The notes: generated from the sequence alone by a model not told the origin. Positions 50,410 through 63,424 are shown, numbered from the stretch's first letter. The stretch: DNA of 64,000 nucleotides from Neisseria zalophi (GCF_008807015.1 NZ_CP031700.1:1947014-2011013); one strand, 5' to 3'. Made by a program: numbers and translations.

Positions 50410-52338
50410 ATGGAAGAGCAGATTAGAGAATTAGCTTTAGAAGGTATAAATCTATTTGAGAGTAAAGAATATCAGGAAGCCATAAAAAAATTCAATGAGG
50501 CTTTAAATCTGATTAAAGATAAAGAAACCTTTATTCGAGAACAAGTTTGCATCCAATATTATTTGGGAAATTGTTATTTTGAACAAGCTTTCAAAGAACA
50601 TACAACAAAGCAACGACAAAAAAAATATCTTAACAATGCAAAGGAAAACTTTCAGAACTACTTAATTCTACCTAAACAAACAATGTCAGAAGATAATTCA
50701 ATAAAAGATTTACTAATTCTTAGTTATATGCAACTGGCTTTAATTACCTATAATGAACAAACTTGTCATAATATTCATGAAGCTAAAAAATATATAAAAG
50801 AATTATTAGCTTCTTGGCAAAAATCACAAAAAGAGCAAGATGAGGAAAATAAAGAGCAAAAGTGTTATGCCTACTTTTGGCTAGCGCTATGCTACATACT
50901 TCTAACTTCCAAAACCAATCATCCACAATATAAATATCTATATTTCAAGCAATCTAGAAAATATTTAAAAAATTGCTTAGCCTTAACTAAACAACTTAAT
51001 AGATTGCAACATAAAATTCGGATACAAATTTACTGCTTGAATCTTTTAGGCGACTATTATCTTCGATACTCTTTTAAAAATAATCAAAAAGCATATTTTA
51101 AAGCTGCTAGAAAAATATTCCAAAAATCATTAGACTTATCTCAGGATATTGAAAACAAAAAAGAAAAAATTCAACAACAAATTGATACTCAATATTATAA
51201 ATCTTTTTGTGATTTTAAATTAAACAACCTTGATATGTATTTCCAATGGAAAACAAAAATTATCAAAAAAAACCTTAATCATATTAAAAATAAGACACTA
51301 AAAGAATATATTACAGATATTCAAGCTGCACTCAGTGTAACTGTTATAGAAATAGAAAATATGTGTTTTGCACATTATACGAACCCAAAAGTCTGTGATT
51401 TGCTATTTGGTACGAATCCATCAAAAGGTAAAGATCAACTTTTAAGTACAATGCGTATGAATAGCTGTACCTATATGAATGACCCAACCGAAGGCAAAAG
51501 CCTACTCGACTTTTTAGGCTATCAGGAATTATCTTTAGAAAATAAAACTAGCTTTAAAAGCCATAATGCTTTTGCCACTTGTTTTTCAGCAAGAGTTAAC
51601 GATTTAAACCAATTCCGCCTATACGGTAAAGTAGACAATATTGAAGCCTCTGGCTGCTGTTTGGTGTTTAATAAAAATGGTGACTGGGTAAAGCTGCCTG
51701 ATATGGGTTCTGCATTCCGCTTAGCCAATAATGAAAAGAAAAAGTTTACTGATATAAATGATTTTAAACTATTTAATATTGAATCTAATCTAAATGATCT
51801 GCCATTATTCCAAGTAGCTTATATCTATAAAAAAGATGAATATATTCAGAATGATGAAGATAATACTCTTGATAATACTAATAAATTTGGCATCCGCTTA
51901 AAGTCTATCGGTAAAAATGCAAATTGGAACAAGCTAAGGAAAGAAAAATTAAGTAAAGCATTAATGGGATTACAAGATCTATTAAATAAAAGAGATTTAA
52001 AAGATAACGACTCAAAAGAACCATTGGAAGAATCCGATATCCAAAACGCCTTGGAATATGTCCGCTATCTTTTTAAAGACTATGCTTTTAGAGATGAAGA
52101 AGAATTCCGCCGGTTACGGATTGAATCTATTGATAGTGAAAATATTCAATTCTGCGAAGATACCAATAACATTTATTTAGAATATGATGATATTACCAGT
52201 ATGGTAAATGAAGTGATTTTAGGTACCAATTATGAGCACACGGAAGAAAAACGGAAAACCGAAACCTTCCGATATTTATTAAAACAGCAAGATATAGATA
52301 TTAAAGTTAGCCATAGTACGCTGCCGATTAATCATTAA
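50410..52338 (+). CDS. Helical-repeat protein with DUF2971-like C-terminus
   Basis: The 642-residue product has residues 1-300 forming TPR-like helices (AIKKFNEALNLIKDKETFIR, CYFWLALCYILL-type segments, KAARKIFQKSLDLSQ). From about 318 the sequence reads FAHYTNPKVCDLL, STMRMNSCTYMNDPTEGKSL, FATCFSARVNDLNQFRLYGK and GCCLVFN, the order of conserved blocks in DUF2971 (short tract of Y.s...F.D..E, then CFS...D...W..Y). DUF2971 function is unknown. Strong ribosome-binding region GAGGGATAGGG. Low G+C compared with its neighbours points to horizontal transfer. Confidence 0.65.
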   Translation: MEEQIRELALEGINLFESKEYQEAIKKFNEALNLIKDKETFIREQVCIQYYLGNCYFEQAFKEHTTKQRQKKYLNNAKENFQNYLILPKQTMSEDNSIKDLLILSYMQLALITYNEQTCHNIHEAKKYIKELLASWQKSQKEQDEENKEQKCYAYFWLALCYILLTSKTNHPQYKYLYFKQSRKYLKNCLALTKQLNRLQHKIRIQIYCLNLLGDYYLRYSFKNNQKAYFKAARKIFQKSLDLSQDIENKKEKIQQQIDTQYYKSFCDFKLNNLDMYFQWKTKIIKKNLNHIKNKTLKEYITDIQAALSVTVIEIENMCFAHYTNPKVCDLLFGTNPSKGKDQLLSTMRMNSCTYMNDPTEGKSLLDFLGYQELSLENKTSFKSHNAFATCFSARVNDLNQFRLYGKVDNIEASGCCLVFNKNGDWVKLPDMGSAFRLANNEKKKFTDINDFKLFNIESNLNDLPLFQVAYIYKKDEYIQNDEDNTLDNTNKFGIRLKSIGKNANWNKLRKEKLSKALMGLQDLLNKRDLKDNDSKEPLEESDIQNALEYVRYLFKDYAFRDEEEFRRLRIESIDSENIQFCEDTNNIYLEYDDITSMVNEVILGTNYEHTEEKRKTETFRYLLKQQDIDIKVSHSTLPINH

Positions 52339-54994: not shown

Positions 54995-57283
54995 ATGAAT
55001 ATTACCCAACTGATTGCCAAAGAACTTTCCGTTTCCGCTTCGCAAATCCAAGCCGCGGTCGACCTGCTCGACGACGGCGCCACCGTGCCTTTTGTCGCGC
55101 GCTACCGCAAAGAAGCCACCGGCGGATTGGACGACACCCAATTAAGAACCTTATCCGAACGCCTGCAATATCTGCGCGAGCTTGAAGACCGCAAACAAAC
55201 CGTGCTCAAAAGCATTGAAGAACAAGGCAAGCTCACCCCCGAACTGGCCGCAGCCATTGCCGAAACCGACAATAAAACCGCACTCGAAGACCTTTACCTG
55301 CCCTACAAACCCAAACGCCGCACCAAGGCCCAAATCGCGCGCGAAAACGGTTTGCAGCCCTTAGCCGATTTACTGCTGAACACACCATCCGACCAGCCCG
55401 AAAAAGAAGCCGAAGCCTATCTCGGCGACAATGTGCCCGACACCAAAGCCGCACTCGACGGCGCACGCGCCATTTTGATGGAACAATTCGCCGAAGAAGC
55501 CGAACTCATCGGCCGCCTGCGCGAAAAACTATGGGCAGAAGCCGAAGTACACGCGCAAGTTGTTGCCGGAAAAGAAAGCGAAGGCGAAAAATTCAAAGAT
55601 TATTTCGACCACCGCGAAGCCATCCGCACCATGCCCAGCCACCGCGCCCTTGCCGTTTTGCGCGGCCGCAATGAAGGCATTTTGCACGTTGCCCTCAAAT
55701 ACCAGCCCGACGAAACCCCGATTACCGAGCAAAGCGATTATGAAAAAATCATTGCCGCCCATTTCCATATCGGCGACAACAAATGGCTGAAAGACACCGT
55801 GCGCCTCACATGGCGCGCCAAAATCTTCCTCTCGCTGGAGCTCGACGCCTTTAACCGCCTCAAAGAAGCCGCCGACACCGACGCCATCACCGTATTCGCA
55901 CGCAACCTCAAAGATTTATTACTCGCCGCTCCCGCCGGCCGCTTAGCGACAATGGGCTTAGACCCCGGTTTCCGCACCGGCATTAAAGTGGCCGTGGTCG
56001 ACGATACCGGCAAATTAATCGACACCGCCGTCGCCTATCTGCACCAAGAAAGCAACGCCTTAGCCACCCTTGCCCGCCTGATTAAACAGCACGGCGTTAA
56101 ACTGATTGCCATCGGCAACGGCACCGCCAGCCGCGAAACCGACAAACTGGCGGGCGAATTGGTGAAAGGCCTGCCCGAAGCCAAGCTGCACAAAATCGTA
56201 GTCAGCGAAGCGGGTGCATCGGTATATTCCGCTTCCGAATTGGCGGCCAAAGAGTTTCCCGAGCTTGATGTTTCCCTGCGCGGCGCGGTATCCATTGCCC
56301 GCCGCCTGCAAGACCCATTGGCCGAACTGGTGAAAATCGACCCCAAATCGATCGGTGTCGGCCAATATCAGCACGATGTTAACCAAAGCCAATTGGCCAA
56401 GTCGCTCGATGCCGTGGTCGAAGATTGCGTAAACGCCGTCGGCGTAGATGTGAACATCGCTTCCGCGCCCCTACTCGCGCGCATTTCCGGCCTCAATCAA
56501 ACACTGGCGCAAAATATCGTCGCATGGCGCGATGAAAACGGCGCTTTCGACAGCCGCCGTAAACTCTTGAAAGTACCGCGCTTGGGCGAAAAAACCTACG
56601 AACAAGCCGCCGGATTCCTGCGCATTAACGGCGGCAAAGAACCGCTCGACGCTTCCGCCGTACACCCCGAAGCCTACCCCATTGTCGCCAAAATGCTCGA
56701 CGACCTGCACATCAAAGCCGCCGACCTTATCGGCAACCGCGAAAAAATCAAACAAATCAAACCCACCGCCTACACCACCGAACAATTCGGCCTGCCCACC
56801 ATTATGGATATCCTCGCCGAACTGGAAAAGCCCAGCCGCGACCCGCGCGGCGAGTTTCAGACGGCCACATTTGCCGAAGGTGTAAACGAAATCAGCGATT
56901 TAGAAATCGGCATGATTCTCGAAGGCGTAGTCAGCAACGTCGCCAACTTCGGCGCATTCGTCGATATCGGCGTCCACCAAGACGGCCTCGTGCATATTTC
57001 CGCCCTATCCGACAAATTCGTCCAAGACCCGCGCGAAGTCGTCAAAGCCGGCGACGTGGTAAAAGTAAAAGTGCTCGAAGTAGACCCCGCCCGCAAACGC
57101 ATCGCCCTCACCATGCGCCTAGACGACGAACCCGGCAGCAGTTCCGCCAGAAACAGGCCGTCTGAACGCAAAAATCGCCCGGGCAATCCACGCGGGAATG
57201 GCAATAAAACCAATAGCAAACCACGCGATAAACAGCCGGGCAATACCGCAATGGCGGATGCATTTGCGAAGTTAAAGCGGTAG
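54995..57283 (+). CDS. tex: RNA-binding transcription accessory protein Tex
   Basis: The 762-residue protein has the order of Tex: N-terminal helical domain ([20 protein letters not shown]), YqgF-like domain ([16 protein letters not shown]), HhH segments ([19 protein letters not shown]) and a C-terminal S1 domain ([20 protein letters not shown] ... [13 protein letters not shown]). A basic tail follows; a DUS encodes part of it (near 57157). Involved in transcription fidelity and stress survival in several bacteria. Confidence 0.94.
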
Positions 57284-57328: not shown

Positions 57329-60300
57329 ATGATTAAAAAAGATACCTTTGCTGATTTACTAAATGCCCTTGATTTTATCCAAGATGGAGAAATCTATACT
57401 AAAAATATCAATGGCCACGAGATGAAAGTTGACTTTGCTAATCAAAAATTGATTTATCCGCAAGGTGTAACCACTATCCGCAAAACTACTTTAAATTTTA
57501 GCCAAAATGAAAACTTTGTAGTTTTCGAATGCATTCATAATCTACTACAAAGCGGTTATAAACCGGAACATATCACCTTAGAGCCTGAAATGACAGGTGG
57601 TCGCGAAAGCACCAGCTTCTATTGTGATATCTTGTTGAAAGACAACAATGGTGCAGAATATCTTTTGATCGAATGTAAAACGACCGACAACAAAGACAGT
57701 GAATTCGAAAAAGCATGGAAAAGAATGCAGAAAGATGGCGGACAGTTATTCAATTATTTCAACAGTTATCGTAAGGCTCAATATCTGTGTCTTTATACTG
57801 CCGATTTTTCAGAAGGAAAAATAGAGCAAAGCTATCATCTCGTTTCCATGAAAGATAATGAAAAATATCTAGAAAGCGATGATAAACTTAGAAGTTATCA
57901 AAGTGTACGTGATGAAAGTGGTAGCAAAAGCGATTTCTTCCAAGTGTGGAAACAAACCTATCAACTTGACTCTACTGAACACAATTTATTTGAGTCCGCC
58001 CCATTCGATATAGGTACTCGTCCTTTTTCTATCAATGATTTAAAGGAGTTGGATAATAATGGTATACAGAAAAAATATCACCAATTTGCCACTATCATGC
58101 GTCAGCATAATGTATCCGGACGTGAAAATGCCTTTGATAAATTGGTAAATTTATTTTTAGCAAAAATTAAAGACGAAAGCGAAAATCCAAATGCATTAAA
58201 AGTTTATTGGAGAGGTGCTGCGCAAGATAATTATTTCGATCTACAAGATCGCTTACAAGAGCTCTATAAAAAAGGAATGGATGAGTTTCTAGATGAAGAA
58301 ATTACTCATATAACTAATGATGAAATAGAAGATGCTTTTGTCTTATTTAAAAATAAAACAGATGAAACCAAAAAAACTATTTTAGAGAAATTCAAGCAAA
58401 TTAAATATTACACCAGTAATGATTTTGCTTTTCTAGATGTACACAATCACACACTCTTTTTCAAAAATGGTGCGATTTTGAAAGAAGTCGTACAAATGCT
58501 ACAAGACATTCGCCTTAAAACCGATAATAGTGGTGAAAACCAATTTTTAGGTGATTTATTTGAAGGCTTTCTAGATCAGGGTGTCAAGCAGTCCGAAGGG
58601 CAATTTTTCACACCGCTGCCTATTGTGCGCTTTCTCGTTTCCTCTCTACCCTTAGAGCACATCATTTCAAATAGCGAAAGTGTCCCTCAAATGATTGATT
58701 ACGCCTGTGGTGCAGGACATTTCTTAAATGAATACGCTAAACAAATTCGTCCTTTCATACAAAAATATAAAAATACCGATACAGCTCCGTATTACCAAGC
58801 GATTTACGGTATAGAGAAAGAGTATCGTTTATCCAAGGTAGCTAAGGTTTCTGCCTTTATGTATGGGCAAGACGGTATCAATATTATTTATGGTGACGGA
58901 TTAACTGAACACGACGATATCAAGAAAGGTACATTTTCTGTATTAGTTGCTAACCCTCCGTATAGCGTAAAGGGTTTCTTAGAAACACTTTCCGAAGAAG
59001 AACGCAACGCTTTTGCTTTATATCAAAGCGTAGATAAAACCGACACATTCAATTCAATAGAAACCTTTTTTATTGAACGTGCTGCACAATTACTCACACC
59101 AGGTGGAGTTGCTGCCATTATTCTGCCATCATCAGTACTCAGTAATGGCGGTATTTACATCAAAACCCGTGAAATTCTTTTGCAGCACTTTGATATTGTT
59201 GCCATTGCTGAATTTGGTTCAGGTACATTCGGTAAAACCAATACCAATACGGCTACATTGTTCCTACGTCGAAAAGCAGATACTCCAAACCTTTCCATCC
59301 ACTATAAAAACCGTGTAAATTATTGGTTCAATAATGATCACAGTACAGACAGTTTATTCGAAGATGGCCATCTACTTGCTCAATACTGTCAGGATTGCGA
59401 TATAGACGAAACGGATTATCATGCTTTTATTTTCAATAAAAGATTGCCTGAGAATGGTATTTTTGCTGATTATCGAGCCGAATATCAAAAAAGTAATGAC
59501 TGGAAAGCACATCAAAAGATGAGAGCTTTTCAAAGAAAAAGTGCTGATGAACAACAACAGGAGTTTGAAATCGCAGCCTTTAAATTTGCCTCTGATATAG
59601 AGCGTGACAAATTACACTATTATCTACTTGCTTCTGCCAACCCCCAACCTGTACTACTGATTAAAAGCCCTGCCAACAATAAAGCAGCCAAAACCTTTCT
59701 TGGCTATGAATGGAGTACACGTAAAGGAAACGAAGGTATTAAATATATTGGCAGTACTGAAATAGGGGATGAAGATAACCCCAATCGTAATCAGGGTATT
59801 TTTAAAATAAATACTCCTTTATTTAATCCTAATGATTTATCAGATACAGGCAAAATTAACCACCTTATCTGTCAGAATTTTCAGACGGCCTCAAATAATT
59901 TTCCAACAACTATTCCTGAAAAATTACGCCCTTATGCTAGTCTGAACTTATTAAATAAAATGCTAGATTTTTCACGAATCAGCTTTGACAAAGCTATTCA
60001 GACTAGTTTAACGGAGAAAGTAGAAATTATTAGTAAGTATCCTCTAATCAGACTAAAAGATTTAGCAAGCATTATTCGTGGTGTAACCTATTCAAAAAAT
60101 GAACAAGCACAAAAAATAACAAATAAAATTATTTTACCAGCCGACAATATTACACTTGATGGCCATTTAAATATTAGTAAAGAAATTTATTTAGATGAAA
60201 ATAAAGAACTTGATGACGAAAAAAGATTAAAAAAAGATGATATTTTTATCTGTTTCTCAAGTGGTAGTGAAAAGCATGTGGGTAAACTATGCTTAATTAC

Positions 60301-60655
60301 TCAGGATACAAATTATTTTGCTGGTGGATTCATGGGAATTTTACGTTCTAATAAAGAAGTATTAGCATCTTATTTATTTAATGTTTTAAATTTAGATAAT
60401 ATGAGAAACAAAGTTCGACAATTAAGTAATGGAAATAATATCAAAAATTTATCTAGTTCTATCGGTGAGTTAAAAGTCCCGCTCCCCCCCAAAAATATTC
60501 AAGAACAAATTGTCATTGAATGTCAAAAAATAGACCAAGAATACGAAACCAGTCGTATGGAAATTGAAACCTACCGTACTAAAATTGCTAAAATATTTAG
60601 TGATTTAGAAGTTTTAGCAGAAACTCAATCTGACAAGACACGGGGGGGGGGGTAA
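57329..60655 (+). CDS. Single-chain restriction-modification enzyme (nuclease-methylase-TRD)
   Basis: The 1108-residue product has an N-terminal nuclease domain with D100 (FYCDILL) and E115-x-K117 (IECKT) forming a PD-(D/E)xK site. The N6-adenine methylase has motif I at 457-465 (DYACGAGHF) and motif IV NPPY at 542-545. A target-recognition domain of HsdS type follows (about 905-1095, ending in the coiled coil SRMEIETYRTKIAKIFSDLE). Cleavage, methylation and recognition in one chain is the type IIG/BcgI-like design. The frame ends RGGG-stop inside an 11-G tract, so the second TRD is missing from this form. AT-rich; a DUS lies at 59880-59891 just before the TRD. Confidence 0.85.
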   Translation: MIKKDTFADLLNALDFIQDGEIYTKNINGHEMKVDFANQKLIYPQGVTTIRKTTLNFSQNENFVVFECIHNLLQSGYKPEHITLEPEMTGGRESTSFYCDILLKDNNGAEYLLIECKTTDNKDSEFEKAWKRMQKDGGQLFNYFNSYRKAQYLCLYTADFSEGKIEQSYHLVSMKDNEKYLESDDKLRSYQSVRDESGSKSDFFQVWKQTYQLDSTEHNLFESAPFDIGTRPFSINDLKELDNNGIQKKYHQFATIMRQHNVSGRENAFDKLVNLFLAKIKDESENPNALKVYWRGAAQDNYFDLQDRLQELYKKGMDEFLDEEITHITNDEIEDAFVLFKNKTDETKKTILEKFKQIKYYTSNDFAFLDVHNHTLFFKNGAILKEVVQMLQDIRLKTDNSGENQFLGDLFEGFLDQGVKQSEGQFFTPLPIVRFLVSSLPLEHIISNSESVPQMIDYACGAGHFLNEYAKQIRPFIQKYKNTDTAPYYQAIYGIEKEYRLSKVAKVSAFMYGQDGINIIYGDGLTEHDDIKKGTFSVLVANPPYSVKGFLETLSEEERNAFALYQSVDKTDTFNSIETFFIERAAQLLTPGGVAAIILPSSVLSNGGIYIKTREILLQHFDIVAIAEFGSGTFGKTNTNTATLFLRRKADTPNLSIHYKNRVNYWFNNDHSTDSLFEDGHLLAQYCQDCDIDETDYHAFIFNKRLPENGIFADYRAEYQKSNDWKAHQKMRAFQRKSADEQQQEFEIAAFKFASDIERDKLHYYLLASANPQPVLLIKSPANNKAAKTFLGYEWSTRKGNEGIKYIGSTEIGDEDNPNRNQGIFKINTPLFNPNDLSDTGKINHLICQNFQTASNNFPTTIPEKLRPYASLNLLNKMLDFSRISFDKAIQTSLTEKVEIISKYPLIRLKDLASIIRGVTYSKNEQAQKITNKIILPADNITLDGHLNISKEIYLDENKELDDEKRLKKDDIFICFSSGSEKHVGKLCLITQDTNYFAGGFMGILRSNKEVLASYLFNVLNLDNMRNKVRQLSNGNNIKNLSSSIGELKVPLPPKNIQEQIVIECQKIDQEYETSRMEIETYRTKIAKIFSDLEVLAETQSDKTRGGG
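60642..60652 (+). repeat. Poly-G tract (11 G), phase-variation switch
   Basis: Eleven consecutive G between the first and second target-recognition domains. With 11 G the frame meets TAA at 60653-60655. With 12 or 9 G the frame continues as VKSFKIKDLIDINKI into the second domain without any stop to 61227. With 10 G a third frame would be used. Confidence 0.85.
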
Positions 60656-61227
60656 AATCATTTAAAATCAAAGACTTGATAGATATAAATAAAATTAATA
60701 TCAATCCTACAGACGCTCCTGATAAAGAGTTTATATATATTGATATTGATGCAGTTGAAAATGGAACAGGTAAATATAGTATAGAAAAAACTTTTTTAGG
60801 CAAACGGGCTCCGTCTAGAGCTAGACGAATTGCTAATAAAGGCTCTACTATTATTTCAACTGTTCGCCCCAACCTAAAAGGATTCGCCTATATAGCAGAA
60901 ACTATTGAAAATAGTGTTTTTTCAACAGGCTTTGCCGTTTTAAATAGTAAAGACGAAAAAATTCTAATTAATTTAATGATTTATTATCTATTTATGTATT
61001 CAGAAGGATTAATGAAACAAATGATTGCCGCGATGCCTAAAGGCCAATATCCAAGTATTAACAAAGGAGATATTGATAACTTTATTTTAGTAATTCCGCC
61101 ACGAACAGAGCAAGAAAAGATTCTTTCTGACATAGCCGAATACGAGGCTAAAATTGCTATTTGCGAACAAAAAATCCAATCTTTACCTACTCAAAAACAA
61201 GCTATCTTAGAAAAATATTTACATTAA
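60653..61227 (+). CDS. Second target-recognition domain, out of frame (phase OFF)
   Basis: This is the downstream half of the specificity region of the enzyme at 57329. Read in the +1-G frame it begins SFKIKDLIDINKI, has PRTEQEKILSDIAEYEAKIA at the end and closes with LPTQKQAILEKYLH, typical of an HsdS C-terminal half with its coiled coil. It has no ribosome-binding site or ATG of its own (a TTG at 60676 is possible), so it is probably made only when the G tract restores the frame. Intact reading frame indicates that it is still used. Confidence 0.8.
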
Positions 61228-62195: not shown

Positions 62196-62276
62196 ACACA
62201 ATAAAAGGCCGTCTGAAAGATGAACTGCACCCCAAAAGTTGGACACTTCTCCAATCCATTAAGGTGCAGTTTTCTT

Positions 62277-62624
62277 ATGAGCAAATATACATTAGACTTT
62301 AAATACCAAGCCGTACAATATTACCGGCACGTACGCAGCCAACAGCGTACCGCCGATCATTTTAATATTTCCCGTACCCATTTACGCCGTTGGATAGCCG
62401 CATACAACCAAGGCGGCATCCGCGCACTTGAGCATCCGCAGGCCATTATGACCATCAAACGTAAAAACCCCTTTATCGTCGATAAACCCGACCACGAAAA
62501 AACACAGGCGGAACTAATCGAAGAGTTGCGCTATATGCGGGCGGAGAACGACTATCTAAAGGAATTAAAAGCCCTCAGGCAGAAAGAAGCGGTCGCCAAA
62601 AAAGCGAAGCCGTCCAAGCACTGA
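62277..62624 (+). CDS. IS3-family transposase OrfA
   Basis: The 115-residue product has an N-terminal HTH (YTLDFKYQAVQYYRHVRSQQ, TADHFNISRTHLRRWIAAY), a basic region (IKRKNPFIV) and a leucine-zipper coiled coil (EELRYMRAENDYLKELKALR). AAGGTG serves as ribosome-binding site and is part of the hairpin AACTGCACC/GGTGCAGTT (62223-62271), which would hide it in transcripts entering from outside. The frame passes through AAAAAAG at 62598-62604, the site of probable -1 frameshifting. Confidence 0.88.
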   Translation: MSKYTLDFKYQAVQYYRHVRSQQRTADHFNISRTHLRRWIAAYNQGGIRALEHPQAIMTIKRKNPFIVDKPDHEKTQAELIEELRYMRAENDYLKELKALRQKEAVAKKAKPSKH

Positions 62625-63424
62625 GGGCAAAACATCCGCTTAAATACCTGCTGCACAGTGCTGCACTGCCCAAAAGCAGCTTTTATTACCACCACGGCCG
62701 TCCCGACCCGGACGAACAGGACAAAGCCGCCGTTGCCGAAGTTTATGCCCGCCATCAAGGGCGTTACGGATACAGGCGGATTGCCGCCACTTTGTCATGG
62801 AATAAGAAAAAGGTTGCCCGTTTGATGAAACTGTTGCAATTGAAAGCCAAAGTGCGTCCGAAAAAAGCCTACCGCCATCCGGCAATGGGGGAACCGTCGG
62901 ATAATATTCTGAACCGCCGCTTTGAGGCGCAAAAACCTAATGAGAAATGGCTGACGGATGCCACCGAATTCAAGTGCAGCAATGGTAAACTGTATCTGTC
63001 ACCGATATTGGATGTATTTAACCGCGAAATCGTCGCTTATGCGATGAGCCGTCGCCCGAACAGCGAGATGGTGGAAAGAATGCTGAATGATGCGGTCTGC
63101 AAACTGACAAAGGCAGATAAAGTGCTGCTGCATTCCGATCAAGGTGTGCTGTACCGTACGGAAGCCTACCGCCGCACGTTGGCGGAACACGGCATAGTGA
63201 AGAGTATGTCGCGTAAAGGCAATTGTTGGGACAATGCACCGATGGAAAGCTTCTTTGCGATACTGAAGACGGAATGCTTTTATCAAGAAGGCAAACTTTC
63301 GACAACAGAGCTGATGCAGACAATAGATGACTATATACGATACTACAATCATAACAGATGTAGTTTGAAATTGAAAAAGCTGAGTCCTGTGGCATACAGA
63401 ACCCAGCTCGAAAAGGCAGCCTGA
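62600..63424 (+). CDS. IS3-family transposase OrfB (DDE integrase domain)
   Basis: The product is about 274 residues when read in the -1 frame from the A6G tract. There is no ATG or GTG near its beginning (first codons read SEAVQALRAKHPLKYLLHSA), so expression by programmed frameshift from orfA is likely. HTH_21 region (RHQGRYGYRRIAATL) and catalytic residues in WLTDATEF (D), LHSDQGVLYRT (D) and NAPMESFFAILKTE (E) are all there. The stop codon lies in AGGCAGCCTGAA (63414-63425), which equals the Kingella-type DUS. Confidence 0.88.
   Translation, partial: KSEAVQALRAKHPLKYLLHSAALPKSSFYYHHGRPDPDEQDKAAVAEVYARHQGRYGYRRIAATLSWNKKKVARLMKLLQLKAKVRPKKAYRHPAMGEPSDNILNRRFEAQKPNEKWLTDATEFKCSNGKLYLSPILDVFNREIVAYAMSRRPNSEMVERMLNDAVCKLTKADKVLLHSDQGVLYRTEAYRRTLAEHGIVKSMSRKGNCWDNAPMESFFAILKTECFYQEGKLSTTELMQTIDDYIRYYNHNRCSLKLKKLSPVAYRTQLEKAA

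Follow-up and report, generated by a model that had tools for sequence, protein, structure and literature searches.

The question raised by this locus is whether the run of eleven guanines that interrupts a restriction-modification (R-M) gene of Neisseria zalophi acts as a switch, such that one gene could yield an enzyme with either one or two recognition domains (TRDs). The gene lies within the window, i.e. the whole 64,000-nucleotide stretch of DNA analysed here, and its features are collected in Table 1. Uptake sequences (GCCGTCTGAA), as found in Neisseria, are dense here.

Table 1. Features of the R-M locus and its flank, with positions counted along the window.
Feature	Position	Strand	Support
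tex gene, conserved upstream neighbour (flank, outside the system)	54995..57283	+	Pfam Tex domains
Long ORF: nuclease, adenine methylase, TRD1 and CR1 helix, 1108 aa	57329..60655	+	
PD-(D/E)XK nuclease motif, D100...E115-x-K117	57626..57679	+	
N6-adenine methyltransferase domain	58541..59311	+	Pfam N6_Mtase, E 3e-27
Motif IV, NPPY	58952-58963	+	NPPY/NPPF in 85/85 mapped family rows
TRD1 (Methylase_S), residues 907-1073	60047..60547	+	Pfam, E 9e-10; fold model
CR1, long conserved helix ending TRD1	60491..60628	+	Helix 163-208, model of P0001
G11 tract, proposed switch; part of the low-confidence CR1-TRD2 loop	60642..60652	+	
TAA stop directly 3' of the tract in the present phase	60653..60655	+	
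TRD2 and CR2 frame, 190 codons, out of frame at G11	60655..61227	+	Methylase_S, E 5.5e-11

The domain content identifies the locus as a single-chain Type IIB (Type IIC/IIG; AloI/TstI/HaeIV-like) R-M gene. Its long open reading frame (ORF; 3327 bases) ends ...DKTRGGG before the TAA, and its product is, at the present G11, the one-TRD form. The best PDB match of this frame is RM.BsaXI, both by sequence search and by fold comparison; the Pfam HSDR_N_2 match at the N-terminus falls below threshold. Two features of the AloI/TstI class are thus present, namely an N-terminal PD-(D/E)XK domain (D100/E115/K117, with the fold match to RM.BsaXI) and a gamma-class N6-adenine methylase with NPPY. A further one, two HsdS-type TRDs in a chain of about 1250 aa, is seen in an orthologue from a second Neisseria species (L007; 1288 aa), whereas the window gene would show it only when its tract is in the other phase. 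Enzymes of the class also cut both strands on either side of a bipartite site, as homotetramers, properties that the window gene would share by analogy only. In the present phase the 1108-residue product instead has the HaeIV-type arrangement of a single chain with one TRD. The separate HsdR, HsdM and HsdS that would mark a Type I system such as NgoAV are not found, since nuclease, methylase and TRD1 share one ORF, nor is the separate S gene of a BcgI-type Type IIB system, the TRDs being fused to the RM chain. The D/E/K residues of the nuclease motif are conserved in 82 of 85 mapped family rows.

The tract was re-examined in both frames. The first-pass annotation had placed an 11-G tract between a nuclease-methylase-TRD1 frame, closed by TAA directly after it, and a TRD2 frame open for 190 codons, and had stated that gain of one G or loss of two would join them; coordinates, frames, joining and open length are all borne out. 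The second frame, read from 60652 (GTA AAA TCA TTT...), remains open up to the stop at 61225-61227, and the minus-2 reading runs through as ...DKTRGGVKSFKIKDLIDINKI... An open stretch of 190 codons would arise by chance with a probability of about 9e-8 (8.2% stops per codon at this composition). The further claim that the TRD2 frame lacks a start was upheld only for ATG and GTG, neither of which occurs near the joint; a possible TTG start is present at 60676. Residues 2-177 of the short ORF and residues 907-1073 of the long ORF both match Pfam Methylase_S above the gathering score, and in phmmer searches the TRD2 frame matches the solved HsdS structures 5ybb_D (E 6e-28) and 3okg_A (E about 6e-28). 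Pattern searches of both strands of the 2,423,693-bp genome returned the G11 tract as the only run of at least eight G, and its length is far beyond chance. Several long G tracts are usual in other Neisseria (PMC5953494), and G029, the genome that carries L007, contains dozens of G 8-mers. An unusual candidate promoter across the tract (CTGACA-17-TAAAAT) was weighed but rejected, since promoter-like sites are fewer in the region than in shuffled sequences.

In the modelled specificity region (mean pLDDT 76) TRD1 is followed by the long helix CR1 (163-208), from which a loop leads into TRD2 and then another long helix, CR2; the fold matches HsdS subunits, the S subunit of EcoR124I and S.BsaXI. 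The loop (209-214; pLDDT below 50) adjoins and includes the glycines encoded by the tract. Because the model places the tract in the loop after CR1, the stop that follows it is predicted to leave a complete TRD1-CR1 half. The possibility that the tract merely encodes a conserved Gly-Gly linker was also dropped, as the tract-free relatives L047, L054 and L057 have no Gly-Gly at the joint in the alignment.

Related alleles differ in tract length. Within the genus sample the gene is present in three genomes only. The orthologue L007 occupies the same locus, again adjoining tex, and its DNA is 74% identical over 4.9 kb; it is uninterrupted through TRD2, with a joint that reads TCG GGG GGG GTA AAA (G8). 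Homology to the window DNA ends 38 bp past the tract and near the 3' end only a part matches again, indicating that TRD2 has been replaced between the two. Similarly, 13 substitutions over about 3.2 kb upstream of the tract distinguish the alleles of Haemophilus haemolyticus and H. aegyptius, yet these have G6 versus G9 and different TRD2s. Two expectations of control by a simple sequence repeat (SSR) are therefore met: a long homopolymer sets the reading frame (G11, with intact frames on both sides), and its length differs between related alleles (G8 vs G11 in Neisseria, G6 vs G9 in Haemophilus).

A scan of 84,980 species genomes, one per species, yielded 80 loci, in Haemophilus, Histophilus, Helicobacter, Treponema, streptococci, Lactococcus, Gemella, Porphyromonas, gut and environmental Bacteroidota, and others. 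With each locus mapped to L007 as reference, G tracts of at least six were found at the TRD1/TRD2 joint of 17 loci including the window and L007, one of them as C19. Among 82 relatives (313 kb), 15 of the 19 G/C runs of at least seven lie inside the 96-bp joint, which makes up 2.5% of the bases (binomial p 4e-21); this value ignores relatedness, and only a version by lineage (10 of 13 runs in the joint, p 3e-14), for which the grouping is our own, allows for kinship. The joint tracts span at least five phyla and one temperate-phage contig and occur in all three frames: nine carriers are in frame (L007, L046, L048, L050, L086, L095, L112, L118, L125), six are out of frame by +2 with TRD2 intact (the window, L052, L091, L097, L056, L127) and two by +1, likewise with TRD2 intact (L077, L089). 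On a tree of the RM part the tract states require at least 11 gains or losses (L049, which ends before the joint, was scored as tract-free), and joint tracts are absent from a well-supported clade of 36 sequences that are mostly environmental, tract carriers belonging to host-associated lineages or being unnamed. None of the 17 carriers has lost the nuclease residues, motif I or NPPY/F.

Several limits attach to this survey. With each species represented by a single genome, it showed no length variation within a clone or species. Homopolymer lengths in drafts and metagenome-assembled genomes are possibly wrong, and the G6 tracts (L046, L048) may be too short for frequent slipping. Further breaks occur in L050 (a frameshift in TRD1), in L077 and L086 (an in-frame stop) and elsewhere in L091, L097, L112 and L127, indicating that part of the set has suffered decay or assembly error; no other break was seen in the stretches read for the window, L007, L046, L048, L052, L089, L095, L118 and L125. 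In L095 and L054 there is also a G tract upstream of TRD1, an arrangement reminiscent of the two tracts of the Helicobacter pylori enzyme JHP1272.

Additional samples gave a mixed return. Relatives are present in 37 of 121 Helicobacteraceae genomes; in two of these relatives (L150, L157) the joint tract is G15 and TRD2 lies in a different frame, that of L150 being a full Methylase_S match. The temperate-phage contig (integrase, anti-repressor) bears a family gene with G8, out of frame, and IMG/VR holds two relatives, one with a tract; no relatives were found in phage records, plasmids gave three weak relatives only, and almost no new members came from Pasteurellaceae (140 genomes) or Streptococcaceae (337). 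At the cut-off used, H. aegyptius NCTC8502 has one family member, L050, whose joint carries G9 and which has a TRD2.

On this evidence we propose, with a probability of roughly 0.68, that slippage switches a single gene back and forth between a one-TRD enzyme like HaeIV and a two-TRD enzyme like AloI, with TRD2 swapped between species. The proposal is built on observed anatomy, on intact catalytic motifs and TRDs, on an in-frame orthologue with a shorter tract and on the recurrence of tracts at this joint in three frames and across phyla. Within the enzyme class, moreover, forms with one TRD (HaeIV) and with two (AloI, TstI) are both documented (PMC3874165, PMC4081073), and with the G8 orthologue and the tracts at exactly the same joint this lends support to the first-pass annotation, in which a poly-G tract between two TRDs acts as the switch of a single-chain R-M enzyme. 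TRD1 and TRD2 would be joined through a slippage-prone poly-G tract, the length of which slipped-strand mispairing would alter in growing cells, as is inferred from established R-M biology. At G11 or G10, translation is predicted to end within a few codons of the tract, giving a nuclease-methylase-TRD1 protein with a complete TRD1-CR1 half; at G9 or G12 the chain would run on through TRD2-CR2. The first protein would be HaeIV-like, pairing through CR1, probably as a homodimer, on a symmetric bipartite site, and the second AloI/TstI-like on an asymmetric one; the activity and specificity of both, and the oligomeric state of the former, are inferred. A slip would then alter the specificity of methylation and of cleavage together, and recombinational replacement of TRD2 could supply new second half-sites. 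Single cells are thus probably able to flip which DNA sites are marked and cut, although the differing specificities of the two proteins, and variation of the tract within a population, remain putative and are inference only. For a wider version of this proposal we consider the odds to be even. In it, one gene would alternate between what the literature regards as two distinct enzyme types, a HaeIV-like one-TRD homodimer with a symmetric site and an AloI-like two-TRD enzyme with an asymmetric one; the switch would have arisen repeatedly at one joint in host-associated members of a family that spans several phyla, and at least once on a temperate phage, and HaeIV itself would be one phase of such a gene.

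The most direct challenge to a change of specificity is that the one-TRD protein is inactive, and that only the joined two-TRD form methylates and cuts, so that the tract simply turns the enzyme on and off. Such is the mode of most SSR-controlled R-M genes, and it is as two-TRD enzymes that TstI and AloI have been studied (PMC4027205). However, the stop is located after a complete TRD1-CR1 unit, HaeIV is an active one-TRD single-chain enzyme (PMC4081073, PMC3874165), truncated HsdS subunits of EcoR124I, EcoDXXI and NgoAV are active as dimers and recognise symmetric sites (PMC3874165), and both forms of the H. pylori Type IIG pair are active (PMC3936762). Uninterrupted one-TRD relatives with intact motifs and without TRD2 nearby also exist (L074, L110, L121), which suggests, from sequence alone, that the one-TRD form is evolutionarily stable. 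Plain ON/OFF phase variation accordingly seems unlikely, but it retains enough weight to be kept in view.

Two further explanations were weighed. Transcription can slip on long G runs, and ribosomal or transcriptional slippage on the tract could deliver both proteins from one genotype without mutation; a -1 slip on G-GGG-GGG, right before the stop, would enter the TRD2 frame of the window. Nevertheless, the shifts needed differ between relatives (+2 in the window, L052 and L091; +1 in L077 and L089), many relatives are in frame and tract lengths range from 6 to 16, whereas a programmed site would keep a single frame and length; recoding is therefore disfavoured, and we regard it as improbable. 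A fixed -1 programmed frameshift in particular is disfavoured by the +1 relatives. Alternatively the gene may be decaying, the frameshift reflecting loss of function under weak selection and the tract being incidental. Decay is a frequent fate of R-M genes, some tract-bearing relatives are broken elsewhere, and TRD2 has decayed in L071. The window gene, in contrast, has no other break and its catalytic motifs are intact, G8 is kept at the joint of its in-frame orthologue, and tracts are concentrated at this joint across phyla. Furthermore, the nearest relative found for its TRD2 is the in-frame fused TRD2 of Helicobacter L095, to which all 190 codons align gap-free with dN 0.38 and dS 1.25 (NG86; dN/dS about 0.3), indicating that this half has remained coding despite being out of frame. 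Decay thus appears very improbable indeed.

Should slippage between one-TRD and two-TRD enzymes prove correct, cutting and marking specificity would change in one step, and a chromosome unmethylated at the new sites would be exposed to its own nuclease. How one catalytic module serves two TRDs in single-chain enzymes has been called a mystery (PMC3874165), on which natural one-TRD and two-TRD phases of one enzyme would offer a handle. For annotation, one-TRD family members labelled 'truncated' or 'frameshifted' should not be dismissed as pseudogenes, and a survey confined to the hsdS genes of Type I and the mod genes of Type III systems would overlook switch genes of the AloI/HaeIV class.

The principle of such a switch is already known; the literature examined does not describe it for this enzyme class, nor does it describe the predicted change of architecture or repeated gain at a single joint. 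In the open papers searched, nothing was found on tracts where the TRDs of AloI/HaeIV-class enzymes join, and an earlier account in subscription papers is not excluded. Amongst solved structures, BsaXI and BcgI provide the nearest or near relatives of both the RM part (8w0p_A, 8w2p_A) and the S fold (8w0p_C), although their specificity resides in a separate S subunit. AloI, PpiI, TstI and CjeI are single chains with two TRDs and asymmetric sites (PMC4081073, PMC3874165); the window gene shares with them the N-terminal PD-(D/E)XK domain, the gamma-class N6-adenine methylase, and, in its joined phase, two HsdS-like TRDs and a chain of about 1250 aa, but differs in the tract between its TRDs, none being described for those enzymes in the papers examined (PMC3874165, PMC4081073, PMC4027205). 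HaeIV, from H. aegyptius, is a single chain with one TRD, reported to be a homodimer, that recognises the symmetric site GAY N5 RTC (PMC4081073, PMC3874165), and the product of the G11 phase resembles it in this single-chain, one-TRD arrangement. The L050 gene may have HaeIV as one of its phases; this is a lead only, made without comparison to a HaeIV sequence.

The first-pass annotation had drawn parallels with NgoAV and with Campylobacter Type IIG enzymes, which are fair, but the closest precedent lies in H. pylori. In NgoAV, a Type I system of N. gonorrhoeae, a poly-G tract likewise follows the first TRD in hsdS, and truncated and full-length S have different motifs (PMC6789123, PMC3874165). 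Unlike NgoAV, with its separate HsdR, HsdM and HsdS, the window gene holds nuclease, methylase and specificity in one chain, and restriction would therefore switch together with methylation. The H. pylori Type IIG enzymes JHP1272 and HP1353-HP1354 have two homopolymer tracts, the second of which brings in a C-terminal recognition domain and alters the motif, as demonstrated from methylomes (PMC3936762). Here, too, a fused enzyme would gain a downstream recognition domain through a homopolymer. However, JHP1272 is MmeI/TaqII-like and its add-on CTRD is small (94 aa compared; PMC3936762), whereas the window gene would gain a full HsdS-type TRD2-CR2, and its switch, unlike that of JHP1272, is predicted to alter architecture, from a symmetric to an asymmetric site.

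Only one run of at least 8 G occurs in the Neisseria genome to which the window belongs, namely the tract of the restriction-modification (R-M) gene, and its count of long G runs lies far below both that of the second Neisseria genome, G029, and the species averages (PMC5953494); it is an unusually tract-poor genome that retains the R-M gene tract. The same gene carries a C7 run, in PLPP codons within the last part of the first target recognition domain (TRD1), which is a possible second, weaker slippage site, with no counterpart at that position among the mapped relatives. Elsewhere in the window, an insertion-sequence pair made up of helix-turn-helix and rve integrase ORFs lies a short distance downstream of the R-M gene, and a 642-aa ORF of repeat-like helical sequence gave no Pfam matches.

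Features of the window and of related loci
Feature	Source	Position
Helix-turn-helix and rve integrase ORFs	window	62220-63424
642-aa ORF	window	50410-52338
C7 run	window	60484-60490
G15 ahead of TRD1, in frame	L095	7586-7600
G13 ahead of TRD1, in frame	L054	7559-7571
TRD-like stretch	L150	5309-5686
Phage-borne family member	L127	5001-8763
Additional A	L050	~7710

Two Helicobacter relatives (L095 and L054) have G tracts preceding TRD1, where a change in length would lead to loss of all specificity; since L095 also has a tract at the TRD1/TRD2 joint, it possesses two switches. The Helicobacteraceae locus L150 contains, 3′ of TRD2 and in a different frame, an additional TRD-like stretch similar to TRD2 of the window, possibly a reserve of spare recognition domains. 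A further family member (L127), which has G8 at the joint and is out of frame, resides on a temperate-phage contig (integrase, anti-repressor). Haemophilus aegyptius NCTC8502, of the same species as the source of HaeIV, has one family gene (L050); compared with the Haemophilus locus L048, its reading frame is broken where TRD1 begins, by the additional A.
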